Part shown: piece by piece, positions 21,317 to 61,730 of the stretch
How the letters are laid out: every line of letters starts with the position of its first letter
Numbering within the stretch: position 1 is the stretch's first letter
Source: Actinomyces ruminicola
Lineage (GTDB): Bacteria > Actinomycetota > Actinomycetes > Actinomycetales > Actinomycetaceae
Length of the DNA: 64,000 bases
Direction of reading: 5' to 3'
Assembly (NCBI RefSeq): GCF_900103885.1
Contig: NZ_FNIM01000011.1
Span: 1 to 64,000 of the forward strand
Translations under genes and position numbers: made by a program
Notes under the pieces: model-generated
Database searches by the model: none
What the model saw: only the letters and a program-made list of their open reading frames with translations
Told to the model about the DNA's origin: nothing

Positions 21317-21372
21317 CCGAGATCGGTAGAAATCACGTACCGAGATCGGTAGAAATCACGTACCGAGATCGG
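21317..21372. repeat. Dispersed 23-bp tandem repeat element, copy R1
   Basis: Three cores CCGAGATCGG at 21317, 21340 and 21363, exactly 23 bp apart, joined by the linker TAGAAATCACGTA. This is the reverse-complement orientation of the family consensus (core CCGATCTCGG, linker YACGTGACTTCTA). It lies between narI (stop 11 bp away) and modA. Confidence 0.95.
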
Positions 21373-21383
21373 CGATAGGGCGG

Positions 21384-22178
21384 CTAGGCCCCCTGGGAGG
21401 GGGCGAGATCGTCGGCGCCCTGGTTGCCGGTGCCCTGGGTGTGCACGGGTTGCCAGCCGCGCCGGGGCCGCACCGTTGAGGTGGCGCCCTCGCGGGAACG
21501 GTAGACCACATAGGGGCGGGTCACGTAGCCCACCGGCGCGGAGACCACGTGCACCAACCGGGTGAAGGGCCAGATCGCGAACAGAACCAGCCCCGCCACG
21601 ATGTGCAGCTTGAACACCATGGGCACATCCGCCATCAGCTCAGGGGCCGGGCTGAGGGCGAAGATCGACCGGAACCAGGGGCTGATCGTCTCGCGGTAGT
21701 CGTAGCCGCCGCCGGCACCGCCCAGCACCTGGGTGGAGAGCGTCGCCCATGCGCCCAGGCACACTGGCACCACCAGCAGCACGTACATGAGCTTGTCGTT
21801 GGCGGTGGTGGCCAGGCGCACCGACTTGACCACCAGGCGCCGGTAGAGCAGGCCCACCATCCCCACCAGTGTCATCAGGCCGGCGATCGAACCCGGGATA
21901 ACCGCCATCAGGTGATAGACGTGCTCCGGGATGCCAGCGGCCTGCGTCCAGGTGTTCGGGATCACCAGGCCCATGAAGTGGCCCAGCGCCACCAGCAGGA
22001 TCCCGAAGTGGAACAGGGGAGAGGACCAGCGCAGTATCGCCGACTCGTGCCACTGGGAGGACCGGCTCGTCCACCCGAACTGGTCGTTGCGGTAGCGCCA
22101 TATCAGCCCCACCACCAGCAGGATGAAGGACACGTAGGGCAGGGCGGTCCACACGACCGCCGACTCGAAGGTGCTCAT
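21384..22178 (-). CDS. narI: Respiratory nitrate reductase gamma subunit NarI
   Basis: 264 residues with five hydrophobic segments and the heme-ligand histidines of NarI (SSPLFHFGILLVALGHFMGL; later FKLHIVAGLVLFAIWPFTRLVH). It anchors NarGH in the membrane and passes quinol electrons through two b hemes. Its start overlaps the narJ stop (ATGA), and it is the last gene of narGHJI. The C-terminal ~35 residues are polar and Gln/Gly-rich. Confidence 0.95.
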   Translation of the reverse strand: MSTFESAVVWTALPYVSFILLVVGLIWRYRNDQFGWTSRSSQWHESAILRWSSPLFHFGILLVALGHFMGLVIPNTWTQAAGIPEHVYHLMAVIPGSIAGLMTLVGMVGLLYRRLVVKSVRLATTANDKLMYVLLVVPVCLGAWATLSTQVLGGAGGGYDYRETISPWFRSIFALSPAPELMADVPMVFKLHIVAGLVLFAIWPFTRLVHVVSAPVGYVTRPYVVYRSREGATSTVRPRRGWQPVHTQGTGNQGADDLAPSQGA

Positions 22179-22906
22179 GACTGCTCCTGGGGGATGAAGG
22201 ACGACGGGCGGCCGACAGGCGGCGCGGGCGGCATGGTCGGGAAGGGTAGGGCATCGGTGACGCCGACGGTCTCCGTGGGCGGGCCTGCCGCCACCAGGGC
22301 GCGCACCCGCGCGGCGGTGGCGGCGTCCACCGCCGGCAGCGTGGCGACGACGGCGTCGAGCAGGCGGGCGTAGGGGGAGTCGGCGTCGCTCAGTGCCCGG
22401 CGCAGCACCTCCAGCCCGTCCCGGTGCGAGGACAGCAGCACGTCGGCCACCTCGTCACCGCTGCGGGCGCTGAGCTCCAGCACCACCGGCAGGTAGTCCG
22501 GCAACTCGTCGCGATCCAGTTCGTAGCCTGCGGCCGCCAGCGCCTGCTTGAAGGCAAGCAGGGCGGCACCCCGGTAGCGGGTGTCGCCGACGGCGTAGTA
22601 GCTCAGGTACAGGCAGCAGCGCCGCCTCCGGTCGAAGACCTCCACGTAGTGCTCGGCCAGGGCGCGCGTGCCCCGGGCCCGCGCCTCGGCCACGAACTCC
22701 TCCAGTGGCCCGGACACCGCCGGCGGCAGCTCGGGGGCGTCCGCCAGCGCCGCGGCGACGGCATCGAGCCGCTCGGCGAACACCCCCTCGGCGGGGTAGT
22801 CCAGCAGCAGCGAGGCGCTCATGTGGACGATCGCCCGCCCGGCGGCGTCGATGTCCGCCGCGGCCGGTGCCAGCGGCCCCACGCCTAGGCCCGTCCTCGC
22901 CTCCAT
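22175..22906 (-). CDS. narJ: Nitrate reductase assembly chaperone NarJ
   Basis: 243 residues from the ATG at 22906, one base after the narH stop; longer frames run into narH and are rejected. TorD-like helical fold, with SASLLLDYPAEGVFAERLDAV, HYVEVFDRRRRCCLYLSYY and DELPDYLPVVLELSA as in NarJ. It holds NarG open for molybdenum cofactor insertion and is not part of the final enzyme. The tail (~40 residues) is Pro-rich. Confidence 0.93.
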   Translation of the reverse strand: MEARTGLGVGPLAPAAADIDAAGRAIVHMSASLLLDYPAEGVFAERLDAVAAALADAPELPPAVSGPLEEFVAEARARGTRALAEHYVEVFDRRRRCCLYLSYYAVGDTRYRGAALLAFKQALAAAGYELDRDELPDYLPVVLELSARSGDEVADVLLSSHRDGLEVLRRALSDADSPYARLLDAVVATLPAVDAATAARVRALVAAGPPTETVGVTDALPFPTMPPAPPVGRPSSFIPQEQS

Positions 22907-22907
22907 G

Positions 22908-24506
22908 TCAGCGGCCTCCGCCCCGGCCGGCCGCGCCCGCACCAATGCCAGGCCCCGCCGTCGGCACCGGGCTGCGACGCGCAGTCGGCAGCGGCAGGCG
23001 CACCGGCCCGCCCGCGCCCTGGGCGGAACCGCCACAGGCGGCGGGGGCGCCCTCGCCCAGGAGGGTGCGCACGTCCTCAGCCATCGCCGTCATACCGCGC
23101 GGCACCTCCGGACTGGCGGTGGGCACGACGTAGCGATCGTCGTACTTGGCGATCGCCAGCAGCCGGTACATGTCCTCCAGCTGCGCCCCGCTCATGCCGA
23201 CAGCGGCGGCGATGGCCGGGTCGGCCTCGTGGCCCAGGCGCACCTGACGCATGTGGGAGCGCATGGCCGCCAGCCGCCGCAGCACCAGCTCGACGGCGTT
23301 CGTGTCCCCGGCGGTGAACAGGCCGGCCAGGTATTCCAGCGGGATGCGCATCTCGGATACGGCGGTCAGCAGCACCCGGTGGTCCTCGCCGTCCAGGCCC
23401 GCGGCGGCGACCTCGTCCACCACCGGCGACAGCGGCGGGATGTACCAGACCATCGGCATCGTGCGGTACTCCGGGTGCAGCGGCAGCGCCACCCGGTAGG
23501 TGGAGATCAGGTCCCACACGGGGGAGCGCTGGGCGGCCTGCACCCACGAGGCGGGCACGCCCGCCTGGCGCGCGGCCCGCACCACCTCCGGGTCGTGGGG
23601 GTCCAGCAGAATCTCCCGCTGCGCCGGGAACAGGTCCTGCGGGTCGGCGACGGCGGCCGCCTGGGAGACCCGGTCGGCGTCGTACAGCAGCACCCCCAGA
23701 TAGCGCAGGCGGCCCACGCAGGTCTCGGAGCAGACGGTGGGCTGCCCGGCCTCCAGCCGCGGGTAGCACAGCGTGCACTTCTCCGCCTTGCCGGTGGTGT
23801 GGTTGAAGTACACCTTCTTGTACGGGCAGGCGGACACACACATGCGCCAGCCGCGGCAGGCGTCCTGGTCCACCAGCACAATGCCGTCCTCGCTGCGCTT
23901 GTACATGGCGCCGGACGGGCAGGCGGACACGCAGGTGGGGTTCAGGCAGTGCTCGCAGATGCGCGGCAGGTAGAACATGAAGGCCTGGTCGATCTCGGTG
24001 GCGACCTTCCGGCTCATGGACGCCACGATCGGGTCCTCGTGCAGGGTCTGGGTGGAGCCGCCCAGGTCGTCGTCCCAGTTGGGGCCCCACTGGATCGTGG
24101 GCATGTACTCGCCGGTCAGCTGGCTCTTGGCGCGCGCCACCGGAATGTTGGGGGAGTCCTTCGGCGCCGACAGCAGCCGGTCGTACTCGTAGGTCCACGG
24201 CTCGTAGTAGTCCTGGACGCCCGGCAGGTCCGGGTTGGCGAAGATATGCGCCAGACGGCGCAGCCGCCCGCCCGAGCGCGGCACCAGCCGACCACTGGCG
24301 GTGCGCTCCCAGCCTCCGTGCCAGCGCTCCTGGTCCTCCCAGCCCTTGGGGTAGCCGACGCCGGGGCGGGTCTCGACATTGTTGAACCACATGTACTCGG
24401 TGCCCTCGCGGTTGGTCCACGCCTGCTTGCAGGTGACCGAGCACGTGTGGCAGCCGATGCACTTGTCCAGGTTCATCACCATGGCGATCTGGGCCATCAC
24501 CTTCAT
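22908..24506 (-). CDS. narH: Respiratory nitrate reductase beta subunit NarH
   Basis: 532 residues. Four cysteine groups bind the Fe-S clusters: CIGCHTCSVTC (Cys 16, 19, 22, 26), CEHCLNPTCVSACP, CRGWRMCVSACP with Trp in place of one Cys (the [3Fe-4S] hallmark of NarH), and CTLCYPRLEAGQPTVCSETC. It carries electrons from NarI heme to NarG on the cytoplasmic face. Its ATG overlaps the narG stop by one base (TGATG). Confidence 0.97.
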   Translation of the reverse strand: MKVMAQIAMVMNLDKCIGCHTCSVTCKQAWTNREGTEYMWFNNVETRPGVGYPKGWEDQERWHGGWERTASGRLVPRSGGRLRRLAHIFANPDLPGVQDYYEPWTYEYDRLLSAPKDSPNIPVARAKSQLTGEYMPTIQWGPNWDDDLGGSTQTLHEDPIVASMSRKVATEIDQAFMFYLPRICEHCLNPTCVSACPSGAMYKRSEDGIVLVDQDACRGWRMCVSACPYKKVYFNHTTGKAEKCTLCYPRLEAGQPTVCSETCVGRLRYLGVLLYDADRVSQAAAVADPQDLFPAQREILLDPHDPEVVRAARQAGVPASWVQAAQRSPVWDLISTYRVALPLHPEYRTMPMVWYIPPLSPVVDEVAAAGLDGEDHRVLLTAVSEMRIPLEYLAGLFTAGDTNAVELVLRRLAAMRSHMRQVRLGHEADPAIAAAVGMSGAQLEDMYRLLAIAKYDDRYVVPTASPEVPRGMTAMAEDVRTLLGEGAPAACGGSAQGAGGPVRLPLPTARRSPVPTAGPGIGAGAAGRGGGR

Positions 24507-27500
24507 CAGAAGGTCACCTCCTGGTTGGTGCGACGACGAATGCGGGTGACCTCGTCGCGGTTGTTGCCGGTGGGGCCTATGTAGTTGAAGGCGTAGGACA
24601 GCTGCGCGTAGCCGCCCGCGAAGTGACTGGGCTTGAGCACAATGCGTGTCAGTGAGTTGTGGGTGCCGCCGCGCCGCCCCGAGGACTCGGTCAGCGGGGT
24701 GTTCATGGTGCGCTCCTGGGCGTGGTGCATGAACACGGTGCCCTCGGGGATGCGGTGGGAGACGACCGCCCGGGCCGCCACGATCCCGTTGCGGTTGTAG
24801 GCCTCCACCCACTCGTTGTCGCGCACGCCGATCTTGTCCGCATCGGCCGGGCTCATCCAGATCGTCTGCCCGCCCCGGCCCAGGGTGAGCATGTGCAGGT
24901 TGTCGTAGTACTGGGAGTGGATCGCCCACTTGTTGTGCACGGTCAGGTAGCGCACCGCCACCTCGACGCCGCCGTCCTGGGCGGTGCCCACCTGCCCGGG
25001 GGCCGCCTCCCCGTACAGGGAGGCGAAGTCCAGCGGCGGGCGGAAGGCCGGCAGCGACTCGCCCATGTCCCGCACCCAGTCGTGGTCCAGGTAGTAGTGC
25101 ATGCGGCCGGTGAGCGTGTGCCACGGCTTGGCGTGCTCCACATTGACCACGAAGGCCGAGTAGCGCCTGCCCCCGTGCTCGGAGCCGGACCACTCCGGGG
25201 TGGTGATCACCGGCTGCGGCTTCACCTGGGTGTCTGCGAAGGTGACCTGCTTGCCGGCCTCCTCCTCGCTGAGCTCCACCAGGGGGGTGCCGGTGCGCCG
25301 GGACAGGGTCTGCCAGCCCTGGGTGGCCAGGTGGCCGTTGGTGGCGCCGGACATGTGCATGACGGCGTCGCCGGCCCTGATGGGCGTGTCGATCAGCGGG
25401 CGGCCCTCGGCGGCGCCGGCGCCGGTGCCGTGGGCGCGGCGCAGCCGCTCCATCTCCCGCTCCGGGTGCAGCATGATGCCCTTGATGGGGATGCCGGGGG
25501 ACTCCACCAGCGGGCCGACGGCGTCGAACTTGTTGCGGATCTGGGTGTAGTCCCGCTCGACCGGCACCAGCTTGGGCATGGTCACGCCCGGCACCCACGC
25601 CTGCGGCAGGGCGGAGACGTCCCCGTGCGGCATGGTCATGGCGTCGGGGGTGTCGTGGGTGAGCGGGGCGGCGACGACGTCGGTCTGGGTGCCCAGGTAC
25701 TTCGGCGCCCACTGGCTGACCAGCTCGGCCAGCTGCTGGTAGATGTCGAAGTCGCTGCGCGCCTCCCACGGCGGGTCGATCGCCAGGTTGAAGGAGTGGA
25801 TGAAGGGGTGCATGTCCGTGGTGGACAGGTCGTACTTCTCGTACCAGGTGGCCGCGGGCAGCACGACGTCGGAGTGCAGCGTGGTGGAGGTGTTGCGGAA
25901 GTCCGCCGTCCACATCAGGTCGAGCTTGCCCTGGGGCGCCTGCTCCCGCCAGGTCATGGACACCGGGCGGCGCTCCGCGGGGGTCTCGGCGGCGTTCACG
26001 TCATTCGCGGCGCCCACCATGTGTCGCAGGAAGAACTCGGTGCCCTTGGCCGACGAGCCCAGCAGGTTGGTGCGCCAGGAGGCCAGGATGCGCGGGAAGT
26101 TCTCCGGGGCGTCCGGGTCCTCGCAGGCGAAGCGCAGCTCCCCCTTGGACAGCTGGTCGACGACGTAGTCCTGTGGCTTCATGCCCGACTCGGCGGCCTG
26201 CTGCCCCAGCAGCAGCGGACTGCGGTCGAAGGTCGGGTAGGAGGGCGTCCAGCCGCGCCGCATCGCCTCCACCAGCGTGTCCGAGGCGGTCTTGCCGGCC
26301 AGGGTGCCGGCCCCCAGCGGGGAGGCGAGCCGCTCGGCCGGGGTGTCGTCGTAGCGCCACTGGTCGGTGGTCAGGTACCAGAAGCCGGTGGAGATCATCT
26401 GGCGGGCGGGTCGGTGCCAGTCCAGGGCGAAGGCGAACTGCGACCAGCCGGCGATCGGGCGCACCTTCTCCTGGCCGACGTAGTGGGCCCAGCCGCCGCC
26501 GTTGACGCCCTGGGTGGCGCACATGGAGGTCAGCGCCAGGATCGTCCGGTAGATCTCGTCGGCGTGGTAGTAGTGGTTGATGCCGGCGCCCATGATGATC
26601 TGGGAGCGGCCGCCGGACTCGATGGCGTTGGCGGCGAAGTCGCGCGCCACCCGGATGGTGGCCGGTCCGGGTACACCGGTCAGCTCGGCCGCCCAGGCGG
26701 GCGTGCCGGGGACGGTGGCGTCGTGGTAGTCGGCGGGCCACTGGCCGGGCAGGCCGGGGCGGGTGACGCCGTAGTCGGCCAGCAGCAGGTCGTAGACGGT
26801 GGTGACCAGGCGCCCGTCGGGCAGTCGGGTGGCGGGCACGCCCCGCCGGATGACGCCGCCGCCGACGGAGCCGGTGGGCGTCTGGGAGCCGGGCAGGTCG
26901 AAGCGGGGCAGCAGGATCTCCGTGGGCTCGACGACGGCGCCCGTCGGGCCGGGGAGATCTCCGGCGGCCCCGCGGTCGGCGGCAGGCGGGCCCGCGGCGG
27001 GCGCGGCGCCGTCGAGGTCGGCGATGGACATGATCGGGTCCACGCCCTCCATGAGCAGGTTCCACCTGCCCTCACCCTCGGGGGTGAAGCGATCGGCCAG
27101 CGTGCCGCCGGGGTCGGCGGGGCCGCGCTCGCGGTCCCACACCAGCGGGCGGAACTCGCCGCGGGGCCGGTCATCGGCCACCCCCGGCACGCCGTCGGCG
27201 GTGACGAAGCGGCCCGGCACCAGGCTGGTGCCGTCGGGGGAGGGGACCAGCTCCACCAGGAAGGGGGCGTCGGTGTGGCGGCGCATGTAGTCCAGGAAGA
27301 AGGGCTCGCGCCGGCCCACGTGGAACTCGGACAGAATCACGTGCCCCATGGCCATTCCCAGCGCCCCGTCGGTGCCGGGCGCCACCCGCAGCCACTGGTC
27401 GGCGAACTTGGTGTTGTCGGCGTAGTCGGGGGAGACCGCCACGACCTTCTGCCCGTGGTAGCGGGCCTCGGCCATGAAGTGGGCGTCCGGGGTGCGGGTC

Positions 27501-28330
27501 AGCGGCAGGTTCGAGCCCCACATGATCAGGTACTGGGCGTTGTACCAGTCGCCCGCCTCCGGCACGTCGGTCTGGTCGCCGAACACCTGCGGGGAGGCCG
27601 GCGGCAGGTCCGCGTACCAGTCGTAGAAGGACAGCATGGTGCCGCCGATCAGCTCGTGGAAGCGGGCGCCCGCCCCGTAGGAGAGCATGGACATGGCCGG
27701 GATGACGGAGAAGCCGGCGCAGCGGTCCGGGCCCCAGGTGCGGATCGTGTGCACGTAGGCGGCGGCGATGATGTCCATCGCCTCGTCCCAGCCGACGCGC
27801 ACCATGCCGCCTCGCCCACGGGCGGACTTGTAGGCGCGGGAGGTCTCCTCGTCCCCGGTGACCTCGGCCCAGGCGGCCACGGCGTCGCCGTCGTGCCGCT
27901 GACGGGCGGCGCGGAAGGCGTCCAGCAGCACGCTGCGCACATACGGGTAGCGGATGCGGGTGGGGGAGTAGGTGTACCAGGAGAAGGCGGCGCCGCGCGG
28001 GCAGCCGCGGGGCTCGTACTCGGGCATGTCCGGCCCGGTGGTGGGGTAGTCGGTGATCTGCTTCTCCCAGGTGATCACGCCGTCGGTGACATACACCTCC
28101 CAGGCGCACGAGCCGGTGCAGTTGACCCCGTGGGTGGAGTGGACCATCTTGTCGTGGCTCCACCGGTGCCGGTAGAAGGTGTCGGCGTCGCGGCCGCCCT
28201 GGAGGAACAGGCGGCGGGCGTCGGCGGAGGCCTCGCCCCGGCGCAGGTAGGAGCCCAGGGTGAACAGGCCCGGGGCGCTTTCTACCCTGGCGTCGGGTCC
28301 GGGGACGATCGGGGCGGTCGGTGTGCTCAT
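24506..28330 (-). CDS. narG: Respiratory nitrate reductase alpha subunit NarG
   Basis: 1274 residues, close to the ~1250 usual. The FS0 cluster ligands are His67, Cys71, Cys75 and Cys110 with the exact H-x3-C-x3-C-x34-C spacing of NarG. The molybdenum-binding region shows MLSFYDWYADLPPASPQVFG, and later QTDVPEAGDWYNAQYLIMWG and MHPFIHSFNLAIDPPWE. It reduces nitrate to nitrite with a bis-MGD cofactor. There is no Tat signal, so it is cytoplasmic-facing. The ATG at 28330 was chosen because the frame further upstream lies in narK. A ~100-bp gap separates it from narK. Confidence 0.97.
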   Translation of the reverse strand: MSTPTAPIVPGPDARVESAPGLFTLGSYLRRGEASADARRLFLQGGRDADTFYRHRWSHDKMVHSTHGVNCTGSCAWEVYVTDGVITWEKQITDYPTTGPDMPEYEPRGCPRGAAFSWYTYSPTRIRYPYVRSVLLDAFRAARQRHDGDAVAAWAEVTGDEETSRAYKSARGRGGMVRVGWDEAMDIIAAAYVHTIRTWGPDRCAGFSVIPAMSMLSYGAGARFHELIGGTMLSFYDWYADLPPASPQVFGDQTDVPEAGDWYNAQYLIMWGSNLPLTRTPDAHFMAEARYHGQKVVAVSPDYADNTKFADQWLRVAPGTDGALGMAMGHVILSEFHVGRREPFFLDYMRRHTDAPFLVELVPSPDGTSLVPGRFVTADGVPGVADDRPRGEFRPLVWDRERGPADPGGTLADRFTPEGEGRWNLLMEGVDPIMSIADLDGAAPAAGPPAADRGAAGDLPGPTGAVVEPTEILLPRFDLPGSQTPTGSVGGGVIRRGVPATRLPDGRLVTTVYDLLLADYGVTRPGLPGQWPADYHDATVPGTPAWAAELTGVPGPATIRVARDFAANAIESGGRSQIIMGAGINHYYHADEIYRTILALTSMCATQGVNGGGWAHYVGQEKVRPIAGWSQFAFALDWHRPARQMISTGFWYLTTDQWRYDDTPAERLASPLGAGTLAGKTASDTLVEAMRRGWTPSYPTFDRSPLLLGQQAAESGMKPQDYVVDQLSKGELRFACEDPDAPENFPRILASWRTNLLGSSAKGTEFFLRHMVGAANDVNAAETPAERRPVSMTWREQAPQGKLDLMWTADFRNTSTTLHSDVVLPAATWYEKYDLSTTDMHPFIHSFNLAIDPPWEARSDFDIYQQLAELVSQWAPKYLGTQTDVVAAPLTHDTPDAMTMPHGDVSALPQAWVPGVTMPKLVPVERDYTQIRNKFDAVGPLVESPGIPIKGIMLHPEREMERLRRAHGTGAGAAEGRPLIDTPIRAGDAVMHMSGATNGHLATQGWQTLSRRTGTPLVELSEEEAGKQVTFADTQVKPQPVITTPEWSGSEHGGRRYSAFVVNVEHAKPWHTLTGRMHYYLDHDWVRDMGESLPAFRPPLDFASLYGEAAPGQVGTAQDGGVEVAVRYLTVHNKWAIHSQYYDNLHMLTLGRGGQTIWMSPADADKIGVRDNEWVEAYNRNGIVAARAVVSHRIPEGTVFMHHAQERTMNTPLTESSGRRGGTHNSLTRIVLKPSHFAGGYAQLSYAFNYIGPTGNNRDEVTRIRRRTNQEVTF

Positions 28331-28434
28331 CGCGGGTCCTTGACGGGGTGTGGGCGGTAGGTAGGAGCGGTTTGGCGAGTCGGTCGGCCGCTTCGTGCCC
28401 CCGGGGCGGCAGCGGCGCGCCGTCGTCGGGCGGA

Positions 28435-30737: not shown

Positions 30738-30750
30738 CCGCCCCCCTTCG

Positions 30751-30783
30751 CCGAGTTCGGTAGAAGTCACGTGCCGAGTTCGG
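30751..30783. repeat. Dispersed 23-bp tandem repeat element, copy R2
   Basis: Two cores CCGAGTTCGG at 30751 and 30774, 23 bp apart, linker TAGAAGTCACGTG; a third linker start (TAGAAGT) follows and then decays. The central two bases of the core differ from the consensus, but both CCGA/TCGG arms are kept. It lies 13 bp after the mog stop. Confidence 0.93.
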
Positions 30784-30900
30784 TAGAAGTGGTCGGTATC
30801 CACCGCCGCCGTCGTCCACAGACCGGATTCACCGCATACCCGAGCGTGCGCGTCCACAGGCCGCCAGCGTTGATCCGGCTGGTTACTGCACGCTCTCCCC

Positions 30901-32040
30901 ATGGATAACGAGGCGTTCTTCCACAAGCCACCAAGCGCGATTCCTCCGGCGCTGGTGCGACGCTCCACCGTGGGGCGCAGTCTGCTAGAAGACGGCGTTG
31001 ACTCGGGGCGGCTCACTCGGATACGGCGTGACGCCTACGTGCACGTCTCCCGCGACGTCGCCGCGTGGGAACAACGCGCAGCCATACACCATGCGATGCT
31101 CGAAGCCTTTCGAGCCGACGCTCTCGAGGGGGTGATTGTGTTGGAGAGCGCCGTCCTGCTTCACGGAGGCACGACATGGCGCACGCCCCAGTCGCTACAT
31201 CTGGCGGTCTCTTACCGGCCGGCGGGTATGCATCGGCCGCCGACGCGACGCGACCCTACACGCCCGCCCAGCCGAGAGCTCGGGCCGCTTGACCGCCGTC
31301 GTGCACTCGCGCGCCGTCCCGTCACCCGGCACACCTTCCCGGTCTCAGGCGACGACGTCGTCACCATAGGCGGGCTGCGCGTGACCGGAATCGAACGCAC
31401 CATCGAGGACTGCGCCCGTTATTTGGAGCCCGACGCCGCATTGGTCGCCGTCGACTCGCTACTTGCCGTGGCCTCGGGCGCCCTGCCGCCTGCCGGTGTC
31501 GACCCCTCCGGACCCGACGGCGTCGATCGCCCTTGGGACCGTGCCGTCGAGATCAACCAGGTGGCGGCTGCTATACGGGCAAGAGTCCTGGCAAGGCTGA
31601 ACGACCGGAGCGGAGAGCGCGGGGTGCGGCGGGCTCGCGCCGTCATCGGGGCCGCCACGCCCTGGAGCCAGTCTCCGTATGAGACGGAACTGCGCCGAAT
31701 CTGCCTGGTCAATGGAATCACCACCCCCACGCCGCAAATGCCCTTACGCACCGCGGAGAAAACGTGCTATGCGGACCTCGGCTGGTGGAGCCTGCGCAGG
31801 GTGGCTGAAGTGGATGGCCTGATCAAGTACGCGCACGACGCCGATACCACCAAAGCCAAGCAGTCCGCACGCGATGAACTCTTCACTGAGCACGGCTTCG
31901 AGCTTGCGCATTTCTCGCCGGACGACGTACTCGACGCCGGGCGGGCGCTAGCGATGTTGCGCGCGTTGCTGCCCCGGACGGCGTGTGAGGAGCGGCCGGT
32001 CACGAGTCTGCGAACCAAGCGCGAGCGCTTGCAACACTGA
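30901..32040 (+). CDS. AbiEi-like HTH plus DUF559/PD-(D/E)XK-like protein
   Basis: 379 residues. The N-terminus (ALVRRSTVGRSLLEDGVDSGRLTRIRRDAYVHV) resembles the winged-helix start of AbiEi-type antitoxins. A middle block GLRVTGIERTIEDCARYL follows. The C-terminus (SQSPYETELRRICLVNGITT, then ADLGWWSLRRVAEVDGLIKY) resembles the DUF559/Vsr-like PD-(D/E)XK fold, with D in ADLGW and E in AEVDG as likely acids. Such proteins are common and uncharacterised in actinobacteria. No AbiEii-type toxin is adjacent, so a classical pair is not supported. It sits alone between repeats R2 and R3. Confidence 0.6.
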   Translation: MDNEAFFHKPPSAIPPALVRRSTVGRSLLEDGVDSGRLTRIRRDAYVHVSRDVAAWEQRAAIHHAMLEAFRADALEGVIVLESAVLLHGGTTWRTPQSLHLAVSYRPAGMHRPPTRRDPTRPPSRELGPLDRRRALARRPVTRHTFPVSGDDVVTIGGLRVTGIERTIEDCARYLEPDAALVAVDSLLAVASGALPPAGVDPSGPDGVDRPWDRAVEINQVAAAIRARVLARLNDRSGERGVRRARAVIGAATPWSQSPYETELRRICLVNGITTPTPQMPLRTAEKTCYADLGWWSLRRVAEVDGLIKYAHDADTTKAKQSARDELFTEHGFELAHFSPDDVLDAGRALAMLRALLPRTACEERPVTSLRTKRERLQH

Positions 32041-32077
32041 GCCGCGCGTCGCCACGGCTGCGCTTCAGCCATATCTA

Positions 32078-32133
32078 CCGATCTGGGCACGTAACGTCTA
32101 CCGATCTGGGCACGTAACGTCTACCGATCTCGC
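32078..32133. repeat. Dispersed 23-bp tandem repeat element, copy R3
   Basis: Cores CCGATCTGGG at 32078 and 32101 and CCGATCTCGC at 32124, each 23 bp apart, linker CACGTAACGTCTA. It fills the space between two convergent genes, and its last unit forms the 3' end of mobA, including the TAG stop. Confidence 0.95.
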
Positions 32134-36027: not shown

Positions 36028-36352
36028 GACGCCTCTCCTTGGTTGTGTGTAGTCCTGGGGCGTGGTGTGAGCGCAACGGCTCGGGGGGACTCGTCGGTTC
36101 AGGAACTGACTGTATAGCTGCGGGCGCAGGGGCCGGCAAACGGTGCCCGCGGTGGCGACGTCGACGACTGGATGCGCTCGAGCCCCACTCCGCACGACCT
36201 CGTTGGCGAGGATTGTCGGCCCGGCAGGATGGCCTGCCCGGAGTCGGCGCAGCAATTGTGCCGCCTTCCTCGACTCGGACCGATCTCGGCACGTGACTTC
36301 TACCGATCTCGGCACGTGACTTCTACCGATCTCGGCGCGCGGGGTTGGGGGT
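36028..36352. other. 325-bp intergenic region between moaD and moaA
   Basis: No gene is supported here. It holds repeat R4 at 36280-36335, directly after the moaA stop, and about 250 bp of ordinary sequence that must include the moaD promoter. No clear terminator or dyad apart from R4. Confidence 0.5.
36280..36335. repeat. Dispersed 23-bp tandem repeat element, copy R4
   Basis: Three perfect consensus cores CCGATCTCGG at 36280, 36303 and 36326, exactly 23 bp apart, linker CACGTGACTTCTA twice without change. This is the best-conserved copy. It ends 17 bp beyond the moaA stop and lies ~250 bp upstream of moaD. Confidence 0.97.
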
Positions 36353-45174: not shown

Positions 45175-45207
45175 TCGAGACCGGCACTAGTGACATGCCG
45201 AGACCGG
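45175..45207. repeat. Dispersed 23-bp tandem repeat element, divergent copy R5
   Basis: Cores TCGAGACCGG (45175) and CCGAGACCGG (45198), still exactly 23 bp apart, linker CACTAGTGACATG. In consensus orientation the linker matches 8 of 13 positions. The changed linker keeps a palindromic centre (CACTAGTG versus CACGTG). Less certain than the other copies. Confidence 0.7.
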
Positions 45208-52458: not shown

Positions 52459-52507
52459 ACGCCCACACGAGTCGCGGCCGCCGAGACAAACCGACAGGAA
52501 GCCGACC

Positions 52508-53251: not shown

Positions 53252-53339
53252 GGCCCCCGGGGCGCGGCGGCGCTGAGCAAGGGGCATGAAGCGGCGCCAG
53301 AGCCGTGACAGCAGGGGAGTTGCGGGCGAGAATCGGGGC

Positions 53340-55010: not shown

Positions 55011-55123
55011 TCGCAGTGCAGTAGCGTGCGGGCAACGCGGAAGCCCCGCCCTGACGTGTGACAACCCGACCTGTTTTGTGCTTTTTTGGCTTGCCAGCCA
55101 GGCAAGCCGACGGGCACAATAGA

Positions 55124-55157
55124 GGGGAGCCACCCGGGCGCAACCGGATGGCTCCCC
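55124..55157 (-). terminator. Terminator of the 47-codon gene
   Basis: On the minus strand a 9-bp perfect stem (GGGGAGCCA with TGGCTCCCC) extended by a further CCGG/CCGG pairing, 12 bp past the small gene's stop, followed by TCTATTGTG. It should end the small transcript. Confidence 0.65.
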
Positions 55158-55169
55158 GATGTAAGCGGC

Positions 55170-55313
55170 TCAGCTGAACCACTTGCTGAGGGCATCCACA
55201 AGGACACCAATGGCCCGGACCAGTTGAGCGAGTGATTCGAACATGTCGCTCAGCTTCCGGGCCATTCCCTTGCCCTTGCGGACTTTGGCATGTCGGCCCT
55301 TCGGCTTGGACAC
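55170..55313 (-). CDS. Small basic amphipathic peptide (47 aa) with perfect ribosome site
   Basis: GTG at 55313 is preceded by AAGGAGGT (55328-55321), a full match to the anti-Shine-Dalgarno, at 7 bp. The 47-residue product has a basic N-terminus (K/R/H in residues 3-20, e.g. KPKGRHAKVRKGKGMARK) and an amphipathic, hydrophobic C-terminal half (FESLAQLVRAIGVLVDALSK then WFS). There is no signal peptide and no cysteine. A terminator follows. It has no recognised family. Leaderless bacteriocin, modulin-like surfactant and small regulatory protein all fit. No immunity gene is obvious, though the CorC-type and ABC genes nearby have not been linked to it. Confidence 0.7.
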   Translation of the reverse strand: MSKPKGRHAKVRKGKGMARKLSDMFESLAQLVRAIGVLVDALSKWFS

Positions 55314-55500
55314 GGCCCCCACCTCCTTCCTGGCTCCTTACCTTCCCGGCCAAGGACATGGAATGTTCCGAGAGGAGGCGCCGAAGAAGGCGCGTCCAGC
55401 GTAGCAGCGGCCACCGACGCGCGACCGTGCCCCTGTTGGCGACGGTGCCTTGAGCTGTCAGGGACTCAGGGGCGCTGTGCACGGGTGCCCGATGATTGAC

Positions 55501-55535
55501 GAAGCCCCCGCCGACTCGGGGTCGGTGGGGGCTTC
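55501..55535 (-). terminator. tRNA-Arg terminator hairpin
   Basis: GAAGCCCCC paired with GGGGGCTTC plus an inner CCGAC/GTCGG stem, directly after the tRNA on the minus strand. Confidence 0.7.
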
Positions 55536-55540
55536 GGGGC

Positions 55541-55616
55541 TGGTGCCCCGGACAGGATTCGAACCTGCGGCCTTCTGCTCCGGAGGCAGACGCTCTATCC
55601 ACTGAGCTACCGGGGC
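55541..55616 (-). tRNA. tRNA-Arg (anticodon CCG)
   Basis: On the minus strand: acceptor GCCCCGG pairs with CCGGGGC, D region TAGCTCAGTGGATAGAGC, anticodon stem-loop TCTGCCTCCGGAGCAGA with CCG in the loop, T arm GCAGGTTCGAATCCTGT, discriminator A and encoded CCA at 55543-55541. It reads the CGG codon. Confidence 0.96.
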
Positions 55617-55694
55617 CCGAGGCGCGACTGTACCAGCGTTCGGGTGCCGGACGGAAACCGGGAGGCTGTGGTGTTCGACGGCGTTGCTCGCGCC

Positions 55695-57056
55695 TCACCC
55701 GTTGCCGGTCAGTGTCAGCACCACCAGCGCCACGTTGAGCACGATGATCAGCACCGCCGCCGCGCGGGAGGTCCAGCGCAGGACCGCGCCGTCGCGCCAC
55801 CGGCCCATGACCTGCTCAGAGCCGGTGGCCCGCATGAGCGGCACGATCGCCAGCGGGATCCCGAAGGACAGCACCACCTGGCTGAGCACGAGCGCCCAGG
55901 TGGGCTCGGCCCCCACGGCGATGATGATCAGTGCCGGGATCAGCGTGACCGCACGGCGCGCCAGCAGGGGCACCCGCACGTGCAGGAGCCCCGCCATGAT
56001 CTCGCTGCCCGCGTATGCCCCCACCGAGGTCGAGGCCAGTCCGGAGGCCAACAGCCCGACCGCGAACACCGCACCGACGGCGGGCCCCAGCGAGGCGGTG
56101 ATGGCGGCGTGCGCGCCTTCGATGGTGTCGGTGCCGCCGACGCCGGACAGCGCCGAGGCGGCCAGCAGCAGTAGGGCGATGTTGACGGCGCCAGCCAGCG
56201 CCAGCGCCCAGATCACATCCACGCGGGTGGCGCGAATGAGCCGGCCGGTGCGCTCCTGCCCGGAGGGGACGGCGTCGGCGTCTGGAATCGGCGCGGTGCC
56301 AGCGGCCTGACGGGCGGCGTGCCCCTCGCCGATCTCCTCGTGGTGGTCGCGCACCAGTGATGAGTGCAGGTAGATGGCGTGTGGCATGACGGTGGCGCCG
56401 AGCATTGAGGCGGCCACCAGCAGGCTGCCCGAGCCCTGCAGGCGGGGGATGAGGCCGGCGAAGGTCTCGCCCCAGTCCGGTGGGGAGATGAACAGCCCGC
56501 CCACGAAGCCGATCGTCACCACCACCAGGAGCGCGACCACGGCCCCCTCGAAGGTGCGCTGGCTACGGCGCTCCTGCAGGGCCAGCAGCAGCATGGAGAC
56601 GGCGCCGATGATCACGCCGCCGGTCAGCAGCGGGATGTTGAACAGCAGGTGCAGGGCGACGGCACCGCCGATGACTTCGGCCAGGTCGGTGGCGGCAGCG
56701 ACCAGCTCAGCCTGCGCCCAGTAGGCCAGGCGGGGGCCGCGGCCGAGCCGATCGCCCAGCACCTGCGGCAGTGAGCGGCCGGTGACGATACCGAGCTTGG
56801 CGCTCTGGTACTGGATCAGCACCGCCATGGCGTTCGCCAGTACCAGCACCCACACCAGCGTGTAGCCGTAGCGGGCGCCAGCGGTGATGTTCGCGGCCAC
56901 ATTGCCCGGGTCCACGTAGGCGACCGCGGCCACGAAGGCGGGTCCGAGCAGCGCCAGCAGCCGGTGCCGGGGCGGGCGCGGCCGTGGCGTGTGCTTGCGC
57001 ACGATTGCCTCTACGGCGGCGTCCGCGCCAGCGGCGGAGTCGATGGGATCGGGCAC
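55695..57056 (-). CDS. mntH: NRAMP-type Mn2+ transporter MntH
   Basis: 453 residues from a GTG at 57056 with AGGAGG 6 bp upstream; a GTG at 57071 would lie before that site. NRAMP motifs: metal-site DPGN (~49-52, [18 protein letters not shown]) and MPH in [12 protein letters not shown], about eleven spans, and an acidic loop [11 protein letters not shown]. It imports Mn2+ with protons. A perfect 18-bp palindrome just upstream is likely its operator. Confidence 0.95.
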
Positions 57057-57074
57057 GGTCGGCCTCCTCACATG

Positions 57075-57092
57075 GTTTCGGGTACCCGAAAC
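57075..57092. promoter_or_regulatory. 18-bp perfect palindrome, likely mntH operator
   Basis: GTTTCGGGTACCCGAAAC lies 19 bp before the chosen mntH start, within its leader. The size and place fit a metalloregulator of the MntR/DtxR type. The sequence is unlike the iron box at 10911, suggesting a separate regulator. Confidence 0.65.
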
Positions 57093-57146
57093 TCTACTCC
57101 TTTGTGGGGGAATGTGCGTGCAGGCGGCGTGGCAGAGCCGTATCTA

Positions 57147-57179
57147 CCGATCTCGGTACGTGACTTCTACCGATCTCGG
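57147..57179. repeat. Dispersed 23-bp tandem repeat element, copy R6
   Basis: Cores CCGATCTCGG at 57147 and 57170, 23 bp apart, linker TACGTGACTTCTA; a TCTA precedes the first core, as if a third unit had been cut. It lies between the mntH operator and argS. Confidence 0.95.
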
Positions 57180-57234
57180 CGTGGGAATCGGGATGGTTTC
57201 GGCGGGTCGGGGCGGTGCCGGTACGCTGGCGCGC

Positions 57235-58911
57235 GTGACCCCAGAAGAGCTCGCCGAAGCGATCCGCAACGTCCTCCTCGCCGCCGCCAGTGACGGCAGC
57301 CTCGCCCTGCCGGTGGAGGAGGTGCCGCTGCCCAAGGTCGAGCGCCCCCGCTCCCGCGAGCACGGCGACTGGGCCACCAACGTCGCCATGCAGCTGGCCA
57401 AGAAGGCCGGCACCAACCCGCGCGCCCTGGCCGAGTTGCTGGCCGAGCGCGTGGGCGCCCTGGACGGCGTCGCCTCCGCGGAGGTCGCCGGCCCCGGCTT
57501 CCTCAACATCCGCCTGGACGCTGCCAGCGCCGGCGAGCTCGCCCGCACCATCCTCAACGCGGGCACCGCCTACGGCACCAACGACTCCCTGGCCGGCCAG
57601 CACATCAACCTCGAGTACGTCTCCGCCAACCCCACCGGCCCAGTACACCTGGGCGGGGCCCGCTGGGCCGCCGTCGGCGACTCCCTGGCCCGCATCATGG
57701 CCGCCTGCGGCGCCGAGGTCACCCGCGAGTACTACTTCAACGACCACGGCACCCAGATCGACCGCTTCGCCCGCTCCCTGCTCGCCGCCGCCCGCGGCCA
57801 GGAGACCCCCGAGGACGGCTACGGCGGCTCCTACATCGGGGAGATCACCGCGCGCGTGACCGCGGACGAGGTCGCCGCCGGCCGCCCCGACCCCGCCGGC
57901 CTGCCCGACGCCGAGGCCACCGAGGTCTTCCGCGCCCGCGGCGTCGACCTCATGTTCGCCGCGGTCAAGGCCGAGCTGCACGACTTCCGCACCGACTTCG
58001 ACGTCTTCTTCCACGAGGACTCCCTGCACACCTCCGGCGCCGTCGAGCGCGCCATCGATCGCCTGCGCGAGCGCGGCGTCATCTTCGAGGCCGACGGCGC
58101 CACCTGGCTGCGCACCACCGACTTCGGTGATGACAAGGACCGCGTCCTGATCAAGTCCGACGGCGACCCCGCCTACTTCGCCGCCGACGTCGCCTACTAC
58201 CTGGACAAGCGCGCCCGCGGCGCCGACTGCGCCATCTACCTGCTCGGTGCCGACCACCACGGCTACATCGGCCGCATGATGGCCATGTGCGCCGCCTACG
58301 GCGACAAGCCCGGCGTCAACATGCAGATCATCATCGGCCAGCTGGTCAACCTGGTGCGCGACGGGCAGCCGGTGCGCATGTCCAAGCGCGCCGGCACCGT
58401 GGTCACCCTGGAGGACCTGGTCGACGCCGTCGGCGTGGACGCGGCCCGCTACGCCCTGGCCCGCTCCTCCATGGACTCCATGATCGACATCGACCTGAAC
58501 CTGCTGGCCTCCACCTCCAACGACAACCCCGTCTACTACGTCCAGTACGCCCACGCCCGCATCCGCTCCGTGGCCCGCAACGCCATCGAGCGGGGCGTGA
58601 CCCGTGAGGCCGGCTTCGACCCCGCCCAGCTGGACACCCCCCACGACTCCCAGCTGCTGGGCGTGCTCGCCCAGTACCCGGCCATCGTCGCCCAGGCCGC
58701 CTCCCTGCGCGAGCAGCACCGCGTGGCCCGCTACCTGGAGACGCTGGCCGCCGCCTACCACACCTGGTACGGCGCCACCCGCGTCACCCCACGCGGCGAC
58801 GACCCGGTCGACGCCGGTCACGTCGCCCGTCTGTGGGTCAACGACGCCGTCGGGCAGGTCATCGCCAACGGGCTGGGCCTGCTGGGCGTGAGCGCTCCGG
58901 AGCGCATGTGA
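57235..58911 (+). CDS. argS: Arginyl-tRNA synthetase
   Basis: 558 residues from the GTG at 57235; the upstream open frame passes through repeat R6 and is rejected. A TACGCT hexamer (57222-57227) sits at leaderless distance. Class I motifs: [20 protein letters not shown] (HIGH position reads HLGG as in other actinobacteria), [20 protein letters not shown] (KMSKS), and a C-terminal anticodon-binding domain. Stop overlaps the lysA ATG. Confidence 0.96.
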
Positions 58912-60371
58912 TGAGCGCCGTACCCGCAGGCGAGGCCCCCCTCGGCGCCCTGGTAGCCCCCGAACCCGAAGCCCGCCCCGACCTGTGGCCCTCGACCGCC
59001 AGGCGCGGCGCCGACGGCGCCCTGGAGATCGGCGGGCGCAGCGTGGGGGAGATCCTCGCCGACGCCCCCACCCCCGTGTTCGTCCTGGACGAGGCCGACC
59101 TGCGCGGCCGCGCCGCCACCTGGGCCGCCGCCATGGCCGAGGAGTTCTGGCCGGGCTACGACATGAACGGCGGTGAGGCCTACTACGCCGGCAAGGCCTT
59201 CCTGACCACGCGGGTGGCCCGGACCGTGCTGTCCGAGGGGCTGGGCATCGACACCGCCTCCGCCGGAGAGCTGGCCGTGGGCGTGGCCGCGCTGGCCGCC
59301 GTTGACGGCGAGGCCGCCACCGCCCACGCCACCCGGCTGGGCCTGCACGGCAACGGCAAGACCCGCGCCGAGATCCGCACCGCGCTGGCTCACCGGGTCG
59401 GCCACCTGGTCCTGGACTCGGCCGAGGAGATCGACCTGGCCGCCGCCGCCGTGCGCGAACTGCGCGAGTCCGGCACCTTCGGGCCCGAGGAGACCGGGTC
59501 GGTCATGCTGCGCCTGACCACCGGCATCCACGCCGGCGGGCACGAGTTCATCTCCACCGCCCACGAGGACCAGAAGTTCGGCATCTCCGTGGCCACCGGC
59601 GCCGCCCTCGACGCGGCCCGCGCCGTCGTGACCGCCCCTGAGCTGACCCTGCACGGGCTGCACTCCCACATCGGCTCCCAGATCTTCGACCTGGCCGGAT
59701 TCCGGGAGGCCGTCGGCGTCGTGCTGAGGCTGCGCCACCAGATCGCCGAGGCGACCGGCGTGCTGTGCCAGGAGGTGGACCTGGGCGGCGGTTACGGCAT
59801 CGCCTACACCGGCGCCGACCCCGTCGCCCCGTCGCCTGCCGAGGTCGCCCGCGCCCTGGCGGAGGCGGTCCGCTCCCTGTGCGCCGAGCTGGGCGACGCC
59901 GTCCCGCACGTATCGGTCGAGCCCGGCCGCTCCATCGCCGGCCCGGCCATGGTCACCCTGTACACCGTGACCGGGCTCAAGCGCGTGGAGCTGGGGGAGG
60001 GGGCCGCCCGCCTGTACGTGAGCGTCGACGGCGGCATGAGCGACAACATCCGCCCCGCCCTGTACGACGCCGCCTACACCGCCCTGGTCGCCAACCGGCG
60101 CCCCGACCCGGCGTCCGGGCTGGTGCGTGCGCGCGTGGTCGGCAAGCACTGCGAGAGCGGTGACGTGGTGGTGCGCGACGTGGACCTGCCCGCCGACCTC
60201 GCCGTCGGCGACGTGCTGGCGGTCCCGGCCACCGGCGCCTACGGACGCTCCATGGCGAGCAACTACAACCTGTTCACCCGGCCCGGCGTCGCCTGGGTCG
60301 AAGCGGGTCGGCAGGGGTGGGTGCTGCGCCCGGAGACCATCGCGGACCTGCTGGCCCTGGAGGGGGACTAG
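58911..60371 (+). CDS. lysA: Diaminopimelate decarboxylase
   Basis: 486 residues. Fold III PLP enzyme: FVLDEADLRGRA, the PLP lysine region GGEAYYAGKAFLTTRVARTV, SHIGSQIFDLAGFREAV, VDLGGGYGIAYTG, EPGRSIAGPAMVTLYTV and C-terminal VGKHCESGDVV. It makes lysine from meso-DAP. Coupled to argS, the usual actinobacterial order argS-lysA-hom-thrB, here interrupted by a toxin-antitoxin pair. Its end overlaps the convergent PIN gene by 4 bp. Confidence 0.96.
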   Translation: MSAVPAGEAPLGALVAPEPEARPDLWPSTARRGADGALEIGGRSVGEILADAPTPVFVLDEADLRGRAATWAAAMAEEFWPGYDMNGGEAYYAGKAFLTTRVARTVLSEGLGIDTASAGELAVGVAALAAVDGEAATAHATRLGLHGNGKTRAEIRTALAHRVGHLVLDSAEEIDLAAAAVRELRESGTFGPEETGSVMLRLTTGIHAGGHEFISTAHEDQKFGISVATGAALDAARAVVTAPELTLHGLHSHIGSQIFDLAGFREAVGVVLRLRHQIAEATGVLCQEVDLGGGYGIAYTGADPVAPSPAEVARALAEAVRSLCAELGDAVPHVSVEPGRSIAGPAMVTLYTVTGLKRVELGEGAARLYVSVDGGMSDNIRPALYDAAYTALVANRRPDPASGLVRARVVGKHCESGDVVVRDVDLPADLAVGDVLAVPATGAYGRSMASNYNLFTRPGVAWVEAGRQGWVLRPETIADLLALEGD

Positions 60372-60778
60372 GCAGACGGTTCTGCCGGGTCGAGTGCCCT
60401 CAGCCCCTGTGCGCGGGCGGCGGCGGCCAGGCGCGCGTCATGGGTGAGGACCGTGACCGGCTCGCGCGGGTCATCCAGTATGACGGCGGTTGCCAGGTGA
60501 ATCGCATCCAGCGACTTGAGCTCGCCCACGAATGAACAGGCGCGCTCAACGATGTCGTTGTTTATCCCGACAAGGCTCACATCACTGAGCGCCTGTGCCG
60601 CCGCTTCCTCGGTGATCCTGGTGCGGTGAGCGAGTCTCGCGGTCTCGATTTTGAGCAGAACCGAGGATATGAGCCTGTCCCTGTGGATCGCTGCATCCAG
60701 TATGGCCTGTGCAGAGTCCGCGCCTTCTTGGTCAAGGAGAACGAGGCCGATTGCGGAAGTGTCGATGTACATCACCAC
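60368..60778 (-). CDS. vapC: PIN-domain toxin (VapC type)
   Basis: 136 residues. PIN acids: Asp in MYIDTSAI, Glu in KIETARLAHRT, Asp in LKSLDAIHLATAVIL and a final VLTHDARLAAAARAQG. It should cleave a specific RNA, probably a tRNA. Start overlaps the antitoxin stop. The pair is inserted between lysA and hom, which usually adjoin, so it is probably an acquired module. Confidence 0.9.
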   Translation of the reverse strand: MVMYIDTSAIGLVLLDQEGADSAQAILDAAIHRDRLISSVLLKIETARLAHRTRITEEAAAQALSDVSLVGINNDIVERACSFVGELKSLDAIHLATAVILDDPREPVTVLTHDARLAAAARAQGLRALDPAEPSA

Positions 60779-61128
60779 GATTCCTCCCGATCCTCATCCA
60801 GTAGCTGCTGAAGCGTCATCCCCTCGGGGAGAGGGAAGCGAGGGATCGGTCCGGTTCGCTCGTGTGTGGCCTCTTGGATGAGTCCTTCACGTAGTAGACG
60901 CTCGTAGGGAGTCTCCTCGGGCTCGATCGGCACCAGGCGGACGACCGGGCGGCCACGGTCGGTGACGGTGACGGGGCGACCGGAGGAGACGACGTCGGCC
61001 ACGATCCGTCCGGAGCGCTGGTTGAGTTCGCGGAGGCTGACAGTGCGGGCGCCTGCGGCGACGCCTGGGCCGGAGGCGGAGGACTGTGCAGGGGCTCCAT
61101 GCGGACTGCCTACGGGTTGCGCGTTCAT
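60772..61128 (-). CDS. vapB: Phd/YefM-type antitoxin partner of PIN toxin
   Basis: 118 residues. Antitoxin DNA-binding core ARTVSLRELNQRSGRIVADV, SSGRPVTVTDRGRPVVRLVP and an acidic C-terminus (EDREESW-type end) that would bind the toxin. The first ~28 residues are low-complexity, so a start nearer SLRELN is possible. Directly upstream lie adjacent 9-bp repeats TGTTCTACA and TGCTCTACA (61146-61163) and a GATAAT -10, a fitting autoregulated promoter. Confidence 0.85.
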   Translation of the reverse strand: MNAQPVGSPHGAPAQSSASGPGVAAGARTVSLRELNQRSGRIVADVVSSGRPVTVTDRGRPVVRLVPIEPEETPYERLLREGLIQEATHERTGPIPRFPLPEGMTLQQLLDEDREESW

Positions 61129-61145
61129 GACTGGATTATCCCAAA

Positions 61146-61163
61146 TGTTCTACATGCTCTACA
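61146..61163. promoter_or_regulatory. Direct repeats in the toxin-antitoxin promoter
   Basis: Two adjacent 9-mers TGTTCTACA and TGCTCTACA, one mismatch, just before a GATAAT hexamer (minus strand, 61140-61135) that would start transcription at or near the antitoxin ATG. Confidence 0.5.
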
Positions 61164-61298
61164 AGGGTCTGGTCGGTAATCCGAGATGCCGGGCGAACCA
61201 TTAGGGAAACACCCCTACTACTCGGGGAGGAGGAAAGGTGGTCGCGGATCAGCCCCGGGGACGTACTGCGCCGGTGAGATCTTCCTTACGGTCTGGAT

Positions 61299-61730
61299 AT
61301 GGACATGACGCGCTCTTCCCTGGAGACCCCGCCCCCTGCTTGGGGACGGGATGACAATCCGTCGGTTTACGGGTGCCGCGTCGCCAGGTGGGGGAGCGAG
61401 GCCATGCTGGTGCTGTGGGCGCTGCTGACCTGCGTCCTGGTTGGCGTGCTGCTCATGGTCGCCATTACCCCGTCCCTGTACACCGTCATAGGAGTGGCGC
61501 TGAGCCTGTCGGCGCTTGGGGTCTGGGGCCTTCTCAGCGCTCGGGTGCTGCATAACCTGCGCCTACCGATCTCGGCACGTGACTTCTACCGATCTGGGCA
61601 CGTGACTTCTACCGATCTCAGTGCGTGTGCGGGAGGGGGCGGCGGTCTCAGCCCGAGGCCGCCTATGCTGTGCCGAGTCACGCTCGCCCACCCCGGCGAG
61701 CCCGCACACATCCGCGAGGTGGTTCTCTTG
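61299..61730 (+). other. Possible two-span membrane protein reading into hom through repeat R7
   Basis: An ATG at 61299 (or 61404) opens a frame with two hydrophobic helices (MLVLWALLTCVLVGVLLMVA and VIGVALSLSALGVWGLLSAR). The frame has no stop: it passes through R7, read as ISARDFYRSGHVTSTDLS, and enters hom in the same phase. Either it is a small membrane-protein gene whose original stop was displaced by R7, or it is not expressed. A fused homoserine dehydrogenase is unlikely. Confidence 0.35.
61566..61621. repeat. Dispersed 23-bp tandem repeat element, copy R7
   Basis: Cores CCGATCTCGG (61566), CCGATCTGGG (61589) and CCGATCTCAG (61612), each 23 bp apart, with the linker CACGTGACTTCTA twice. 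It ends ~105 bp before hom. Confidence 0.95.

Follow-up and report, generated by a model that had tools for sequence, protein, structure and literature searches.

Polar tandem arrays of a 22- to 23-bp unit form a dispersed, tentatively REPIN-like intergenic family in Actinomyces

Repetitive extragenic palindromic (REP)-like repeats are thought to depend on REP-associated tyrosine transposases (RAYTs). BOX elements of Streptococcus pneumoniae consist of a short intergenic module repeated in tandem in variable number within a three-part boxA-boxB-boxC architecture, and neisserial uptake sequences are single 10- to 12-mers. REP and REPIN sequences of Pseudomonas and Escherichia coli are described, in sections of the source paper, as short, extragenic and many-copy; their inverted doublets form hairpins (PMC3116915). 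The same sections regard singlets as remnants and report differences between lineages (PMC3116915). Dispersed palindromic repeats with GTAG/CGTC tags, some in tandem clusters, are the subject of another paper, in those of its portions used here (PMC3733652), and the words Actinomyces and Actinobacteria are absent from its main text. Dialects of DNA uptake sequences among related species are described for the Neisseriaceae in portions of a third (PMC3630211). Here, we examine a family of short tandem arrays found in a window of 64,000 nucleotides, the whole stretch of DNA analyzed, from Actinomyces ruminicola (assembly GCF_900103885.1, contig NZ_FNIM01000011.1). A literature search that covered few subscription papers returned no description of this Actinomyces family.

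Results

A polar unit in tandem, far above chance

The window holds seven arrays of two or three cores each, at the places given by an earlier sequence-only reading and, as it had reported, with successive core starts exactly 23 bp apart:

21317..21372, plus strand: three cores, between a periplasmic binding protein gene and narI; points toward narI, the exception in polarity
30751..30783, plus strand: two cores, 13 bp past the stop of a moaB/mog-like gene
32078..32133, minus strand: three cores; located at a mobA-like gene's 3' end and facing the 30751 array across the open reading frame (ORF) 30901–32040
36280..36335, minus strand: three cores, 17 bp past the stop of moaA
45175..45207, plus strand: variant array of two cores (core CCGAGACCGG, linker CACTAGTGACATG), upstream of isocitrate dehydrogenase
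57147..57179, minus strand: two cores, between the starts of mntH (Nramp) and argS
61566..61621, minus strand: three cores, upstream of homoserine dehydrogenase (domain start near 61797)

The expectation of a count far above chance was borne out in the A. ruminicola genome (3.10 Mb, 39 contigs), where 122 exact CCGANNTCGG-N13-CCGANNTCGG matches compare with none for a reversed-pattern control. On its 785-kb contig C10, a core-to-core distance of 23 bp occurs 25 times, followed by 46 (7), 45 (3), and 69 bp (3). With a weight matrix, 51 pairs were detected in C10 and 10 in the window, versus none in shuffled C10. Isolated units are found at about chance level (17 singles versus 13 matches in shuffled sequence in a 3-mismatch search), and runs of two to five number 46. 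Read in sense polarity, the unit approximates CGAG-N-TCGG-nAS-NNN-T-K-R-C-RYV in the A. ruminicola clade and in two further genomes, G020 and G016 (other genomes carry such handles below). In many arrays of A. ruminicola, CG precedes the first core and a partial unit, TAGATATGGC, stands at the end. What is conserved is a direct repeat with polarity, 22 or 23 bp per unit, in runs of at least two.

For counts across species, we used a curated set of 139 arrays from seven genomes, from which 46 of 185 loose candidates had been dropped as likely chance matches; the finder behind these arrays itself demanded most core letters. The fixed 23-bp spacing holds for every array of the window but not elsewhere, as curated spacings of 23 and 22 bp number 64 and 8 in A. 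ruminicola, 102 and 13 in G030, 105 and 0 in G020, and 0 and 21 in G005. At 10.5 bp per turn, 23 bp corresponds to 2.19 turns, and successive units therefore rotate by about 68 degrees; with sister species using 22 bp, the proposal that the cores lie on one face of the DNA is weak.

The core had also been taken for a protein-bound dyad, which fits its arms, near-symmetric in the A. ruminicola clade, but neither its asymmetric center nor the cores of G017, G036, and G004, in which the palindrome is lost. Among 89 neighboring cores of A. ruminicola read without constraint, position 1 is C in 80 and position 10 is G in 80, position 3 (G in 63) is weaker than its mate at position 8 (C in 81), and the center is asymmetric (position 5 G in 72, position 6 A in 65). 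The arms of the G030 core are likewise near-symmetric and its center is not (152 and 150 of 163 at positions 1 and 10), while positions 1 and 10 still differ in G020 (62 versus 82 of 89). The G017 core, CGAGAACGG, is no palindrome and belongs to a similar 22-bp architecture, with six arrays in 140 kb; the core of G036 and G004, CGAGACCGG, is none either, with the direct repeat kept. Asymmetric conservation between core positions 1 and 10 was discarded as a bias of the array finder, which scored one of the two but not its mate; it is not borne out in A. ruminicola and G030, and a sense-strand excess of wobble pairs at these positions, subject to the same bias, was not used.

Placement between genes and orientation relative to them

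In agreement with the claim that no copy lies inside a conserved coding region, 131 of the 139 curated arrays are located wholly between called genes, while six overlap a called gene and two are at a sequence edge. Genes were called with a small home-made codon-usage caller, and start codons are uncertain for that reason. Convergent gaps hold 41 arrays and divergent gaps 19, compared with background counts of 143 and 202 (P = 0.00013), and in same-direction gaps 51 of 71 arrays are closer to the upstream stop, with a sense:antisense ratio of 44:27 (P = 0.057); these P values are optimistic because the polarity and placement counts include orthologous loci of related species. A stop codon within 60 nt on one side only is found for 62 sense and 12 antisense arrays, whereas 11 arrays are flanked by two such stops and 54 lack one altogether.

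Copies occur in both orientations, as had been noted, with respect to the chromosome strand, but relative to the nearest gene their orientation is ordered. Solo arrays point away from rather than toward the nearest coding end at stops (62:17) and at starts (24:6), and the corresponding ratios for arrays with a facing partner are 12:1 and 8:1. At 24 loci from eight further genomes, stop-proximal arrays gave 12:2, with 16 undecided; counting overlapping loci once gave 8:2. All seven window arrays but one, that at 21317, are directed away from the nearest gene. The 20 nt before an array are rich in C (0.51) and poor in G (0.21; 137 arrays), with an equal skew on the start side, compared with 0.39 and 0.35 after 697 stop codons of array-free gaps.

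Facing arrays, hairpins, and folding

Neighboring arrays less than 1.5 kb apart are facing in 21 cases, back-to-back in none, and parallel in three; up to 10 kb, these numbers become 38, 10, and 28. Opposite-strand neighbors less than 150 bp apart in G036 and G004 are facing by 14:0 and 9:0 among the matches listed. Near-perfect hairpins were obtained for 11 of 12 fetched pairs, which had been picked as close and facing: the hairpins of the 11 pairs from G036 and G004 are perfect or nearly so, with energies between −69.7 and −83.5 kcal/mol, and that of the G063 pair is imperfect (−47.9 kcal/mol). Six distinct arm sequences are represented among the 11 hairpins, each paired with its own partner. 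As for single arrays, the mean folding z of 39 arrays from A. ruminicola is −1.92 for the sense strand, compared with −0.62 for its complement. A core-to-core RNA hairpin was considered as the conserved feature, a candidate weakened by folding in other species. A known RNA family was ruled out for lack of an Rfam 15 match to the arrays of the window, in which the scan returned one tRNA at gathering level and, at E up to 1, only tRNA and tRNA-Sec.

Between facing arrays lies either a host gene or noncoding sequence, the latter partly common to other dispersed repeats. The genes include what we take to be ndk and, in G020, one IS30-like transposase; since the intervening genes look like ordinary host genes from their translations, a mobile gene cassette was rejected. 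In the window, the ORF at 30901–32040 (379 aa, no Pfam match) sits between facing arrays; the matching stretches of G030 and G005 also have facing arrays, and G005 has a similar ORF.

Two other dispersed repeats were noticed. One, at 2560–3229 of locus L130 in G030, is noncoding and up to ~490 bp long, with longer matches 75 to 92% alike in the first 400 kb of that genome; it begins near GGCTCTTCGTGTTTG and has near-complements at its other end, and one copy lies between two facing arrays. Another is present at 263787–264065 and 203558–203893 of C10, with GACGGTTCGGCACTTC-like segments, their complements, and matches in G030.

Common loci, different dialects

Fourteen A. ruminicola arrays, the seven of the window and seven from two 20-kb stretches of C10, were examined across relatives. 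That orthologous gaps lack arrays proved true of a minority: 12 of the 14 are matched in at least one of G005, G012, G014, and G030, whereas two, 45175 and C10:263656, have array-free counterparts in alignable relatives. For 45175, no array was found in the matching gap of any of these four genomes. The gap of the 21317 array holds, in G030 and G005, two facing arrays around ~0.6 kb; because of this difference, the 21317 array may be the remaining arm of a facing pair. The 30751 array has orthologous arrays with different units in G030 and G005, and G030 has an array of 22-bp units in the gap matching 36280. The orthologous gap of 57147 contains arrays in G012 and G014, and an array of G030 just upstream of argS corresponds by position. 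Related arrays to that at 61566, which falls in an extension of the ORF ahead of the homoserine dehydrogenase domain, are present in G012 and, imperfectly, in G014. Among the C10 arrays, 172163 has a degenerate match in G005, and the gaps of 268271 and 271481 are empty in some relatives. Near the 57147 array, a palindrome, GTTTCGGGTACCCGAAAC, occurs at 57075–57092 just upstream of mntH, with close versions in G012, G014, and G016, and is a possible candidate operator for manganese control.

Unit types at matching gaps often differ; at C10:272419, for example, A. ruminicola has CCGATCTCGG units and G012 and G014 have CCGGT units. At eight loci matched between A. ruminicola and G030, identity between loci of the same genome is 0.872 and 0.893, whereas orthologous identity is 0.838 versus 0.822 for non-orthologous cross-genome comparisons, so that orthologues are not clearly closer than random pairing (P = 0.06). 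Three of these matches (57147, C10:174223, and C10:272419) were made by position and gene order, with no anchored alignment, and 21317 was compared with the nearer of the two G030 arrays, which is opposite in orientation. The NNN triplet of the unit is free across the family, yet AAG accounts for 42 of 72 curated triplets in A. ruminicola, and ATC (63) and TTG (33) for most of the 115 in G030, and the triplets of the two genomes are nearly disjoint at the eight loci. The triplet is thus largely uniform within a genome and differs between two closely related genomes, even at common loci, which together with the likeness of copies within a genome points to copying between loci rather than selection on each letter.

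A sub-family with core CCGGTCTCGG and a linker end like YACTNGTG comprises the window array at 45175–45207, a copy at C10 267426, and loci in G012 and G014. In relatives it occupies loci where A. ruminicola has the main type.

Distribution and search for a mobilizing enzyme

The exact core pair is present in A. ruminicola and in seven of 58 other genomes, all seven being Actinomyces, one with a single match. A stricter unit pattern is matched in 10 of 49 Actinomyces genomes; across the order (396 genomes, including seven of Actinomyces), it returned A. ruminicola and one single match in another family, which we take for chance (1 in 389 genomes outside the genus). In named genomes, 15 stretches match a stricter pattern, all of them from A. 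succiniciruminis, A. glycerinitolerans, or A. ruminis. Over 5.7 kb, an A. ruminis stretch shares 94.7% identity with A. ruminicola DNA. Searching the 49 Actinomyces genomes with a loose pattern, CGAGNNCGG-N13/14-CGAGNNCGG, gave 26 to 587 matches in 20 genomes and 0 to 9 in the other 29, compared with at most 4 for the reversed control. Units vary from species to species, as shown by the 22-bp units of G028 and G063 and by those, also of 22 bp, of G036 and G004; their common letters and architecture suggest that the units of all species are homologous. In an ArgS tree of 48 genomes, without G016, for which half of the ArgS sequence was available, the carriers (genomes matching the stricter pattern) include seven with the A. 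ruminicola dialect that form one fully supported clade, with G020 and G059 apart.

The co-occurrence of a RAYT-like transposase, which the sequence-only reading had suggested testing, failed to appear: PF01797 (Y1 transposase) was found in 0 of 49 Actinomyces genomes by a search that recovered it in five of 14 known genomes as a positive control. A RAYT-driven REP was rejected accordingly. One array (window 36270–36345) had no match in plasmid and phage collections, and 19 viral stretches with the loose pattern have unrelated linkers and look like chance, so an origin from phage or plasmid was set aside. Viral contig L068 carries two CCGAATTCGG-N13-CCGAATTCGG pairs, at 1221 and 2098, with linkers unlike those of Actinomyces. 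An assembly or adapter artifact was dismissed because the copies differ and are present in many genomes, at orthologous places.

Discussion

We tentatively favor, at slightly less than even confidence, a REPIN-like dispersed family of Actinomyces that spreads by copying without RAYT and probably acts at transcript ends. Copies would spread and overwrite one another by copying, run by an enzyme other than RAYT. The arrays would act as polar stops for transcripts leaving the neighboring gene, which would pass a C-rich tract and then the array or hairpin, and many copies would be kept in place while their sequence is replaced. The C-rich tract, placement at gene ends, hairpins, and retention of place favor a polar transcript stop or insulator, and patchiness, dialects, near-identical hairpins, and inverted geometry favor a spreading repeat. 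Both roles are ascribed to REP-like elements elsewhere, and the combination is the interpretation we favor.

Several observations weigh against this interpretation. No mobilizing enzyme was found, the RAYT search (PF01797) being negative in 49 genomes, and no clean empty site or target duplication was seen at the compared loci, where the sequence around arrays aligns too poorly to define one. By the loose pattern, 29 of 49 species lack a clear family, which is therefore not essential. A facing partner within the gap was counted for only 21 of 131 curated arrays, at 1 mismatch and with a longer unit, as a degenerate facing-core search is uninformative with a near-palindromic core. By eye, no T-run of an intrinsic terminator follows the 12 facing pairs. 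A simple 3'-end terminator would not need the 24 of 30 solo start-side arrays that are antisense to the adjoining gene, and a simple RNA terminator is further countered by folding within arrays that is weak or not sense-biased in several species. Single arrays do not fold strongly in every species (mean sense z of −2.51 in A. ruminicola, −1.87 in G033, −0.42 in G062, −0.24 in G028/G063, and 0.01 in G013; 2–20 arrays per species), the non-sense strand folds better in G030, G005, and G017, and 37 of 88 core-core contacts in A. ruminicola are mismatched at one inner G-C position.

Selection alone might account for the arrays if they were plain bidirectional terminators or insulators made by the host, with a common reading factor behind the likeness of copies within a genome. 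The excess of sense arrays near stops (62:12), the upstream C-rich, G-poor tract, a composition preferred by Rho, the retention at orthologous places, and the G036 and G004 hairpins (about −70 to −84 kcal/mol) agree with this account, which is possible but on the unlikely side: even the NNN triplet, free across the family, is uniform within a species, start-side arrays point away from starts, and folding is weak in several species. We likewise consider it unlikely that the arrays are genus-wide gene-boundary elements in which the tandem 22- to 23-bp units, together with a sequence-specific factor that reads them, form polar barriers at the ends of genes and a non-RAYT copying machinery rewrites the units in place, bringing every locus to a single species dialect. 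Rather doubtful is a selfish element resembling a miniature inverted-repeat transposable element (MITE), whose arms would be tandem sites of a putative transposase and whose left-over arms would be the solo arrays; polarity would then follow from insertion as an inverted pair in small gaps. The facing geometry (21:0, 14:0, and 9:0) fits such an element, as do G036 hairpins with identical arms in unrelated flanks, the gap that holds one array in A. ruminicola but a facing pair in G030 and G005, and the patchy distribution. However, just 21 of 131 arrays share their gap with a facing partner (1 mismatch), the intervening sequences of different pairs are unrelated, no target duplication was seen, and the same places are kept in relatives.

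A binding-site array for a chromosomal architectural protein or a regulator is improbable. Although each array has at least two sites at a near-fixed period, and the core arms are near-symmetric in the A. ruminicola clade, a period of 22 or 23 bp gives long runs no common face, the palindrome is lost in other species, the NNN triplet is homogenized despite varying freely, and the family is patchy over the genus. Very improbable, in our view, is a signal for recombination or DNA uptake that has species-specific dialects like the uptake sequences of Neisseriaceae: single units hardly occur, and copies are far fewer than is typical of uptake sequences, even though these also form inverted pairs near gene ends. 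Dialects, which are known for uptake sequences according to portions of PMC3630211, would be in its favor.

Returning to the REPIN-like family that we favor, replacement in place, dialects, and an ordered polarity, combined in a genus in which RAYT was not found, call for another copying agent, and the ~20 species, some with arrays at common loci, are material for seeking it. If the arrays do stop transcripts, they would represent a type of gene boundary particular to one lineage among high-G+C bacteria.

Compared with REP and REPIN sequences, the Actinomyces arrays are similarly short, extragenic, and many-copy, with inverted hairpin doublets among selected close pairs and diversity between lineages. 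An extragenic location and often more than 100 copies are features of REP/REPIN, and here 131 of 139 arrays are intergenic and up to 587 loose-pattern matches occur per genome. Unlike in REP/REPIN, the genomes are without RAYT, the arm itself is a run of direct 22- to 23-bp repeats, most curated arrays have no facing partner, and loci are retained while their sequence is replaced. The family is not classed as REP or REPIN because one defining feature, RAYT, is absent from the 49 genomes. With BOX elements it shares a short module in tandem between genes, although the boxA-boxB-boxC architecture is not apparent here, and with neisserial uptake sequences it shares dialects among related species, whereas its tandem arrays of 22 to 23 bp are obligate. 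The GTAG/CGTC-tagged repeats, as portions of their description have it, are likewise dispersed, palindromic, and partly tandem (PMC3733652). By eye, however, no GTAG or CGTC tag precedes a stem in our arrays; GTAG occurs in the A. ruminicola unit after the core in sense polarity, not before a stem, and other dialects are without it. Of MITE features, inverted arms are present in part, and the flanks align too poorly to define a target-site duplication. That the element is dispersed and intergenic, with a fixed period and counts far above chance, is supported. Of the three roles put forward by the sequence-only reading, namely a nucleoid or regulator array, a REP-like mobile repeat, and a bipartite recombination site, the REP-like one fits best.

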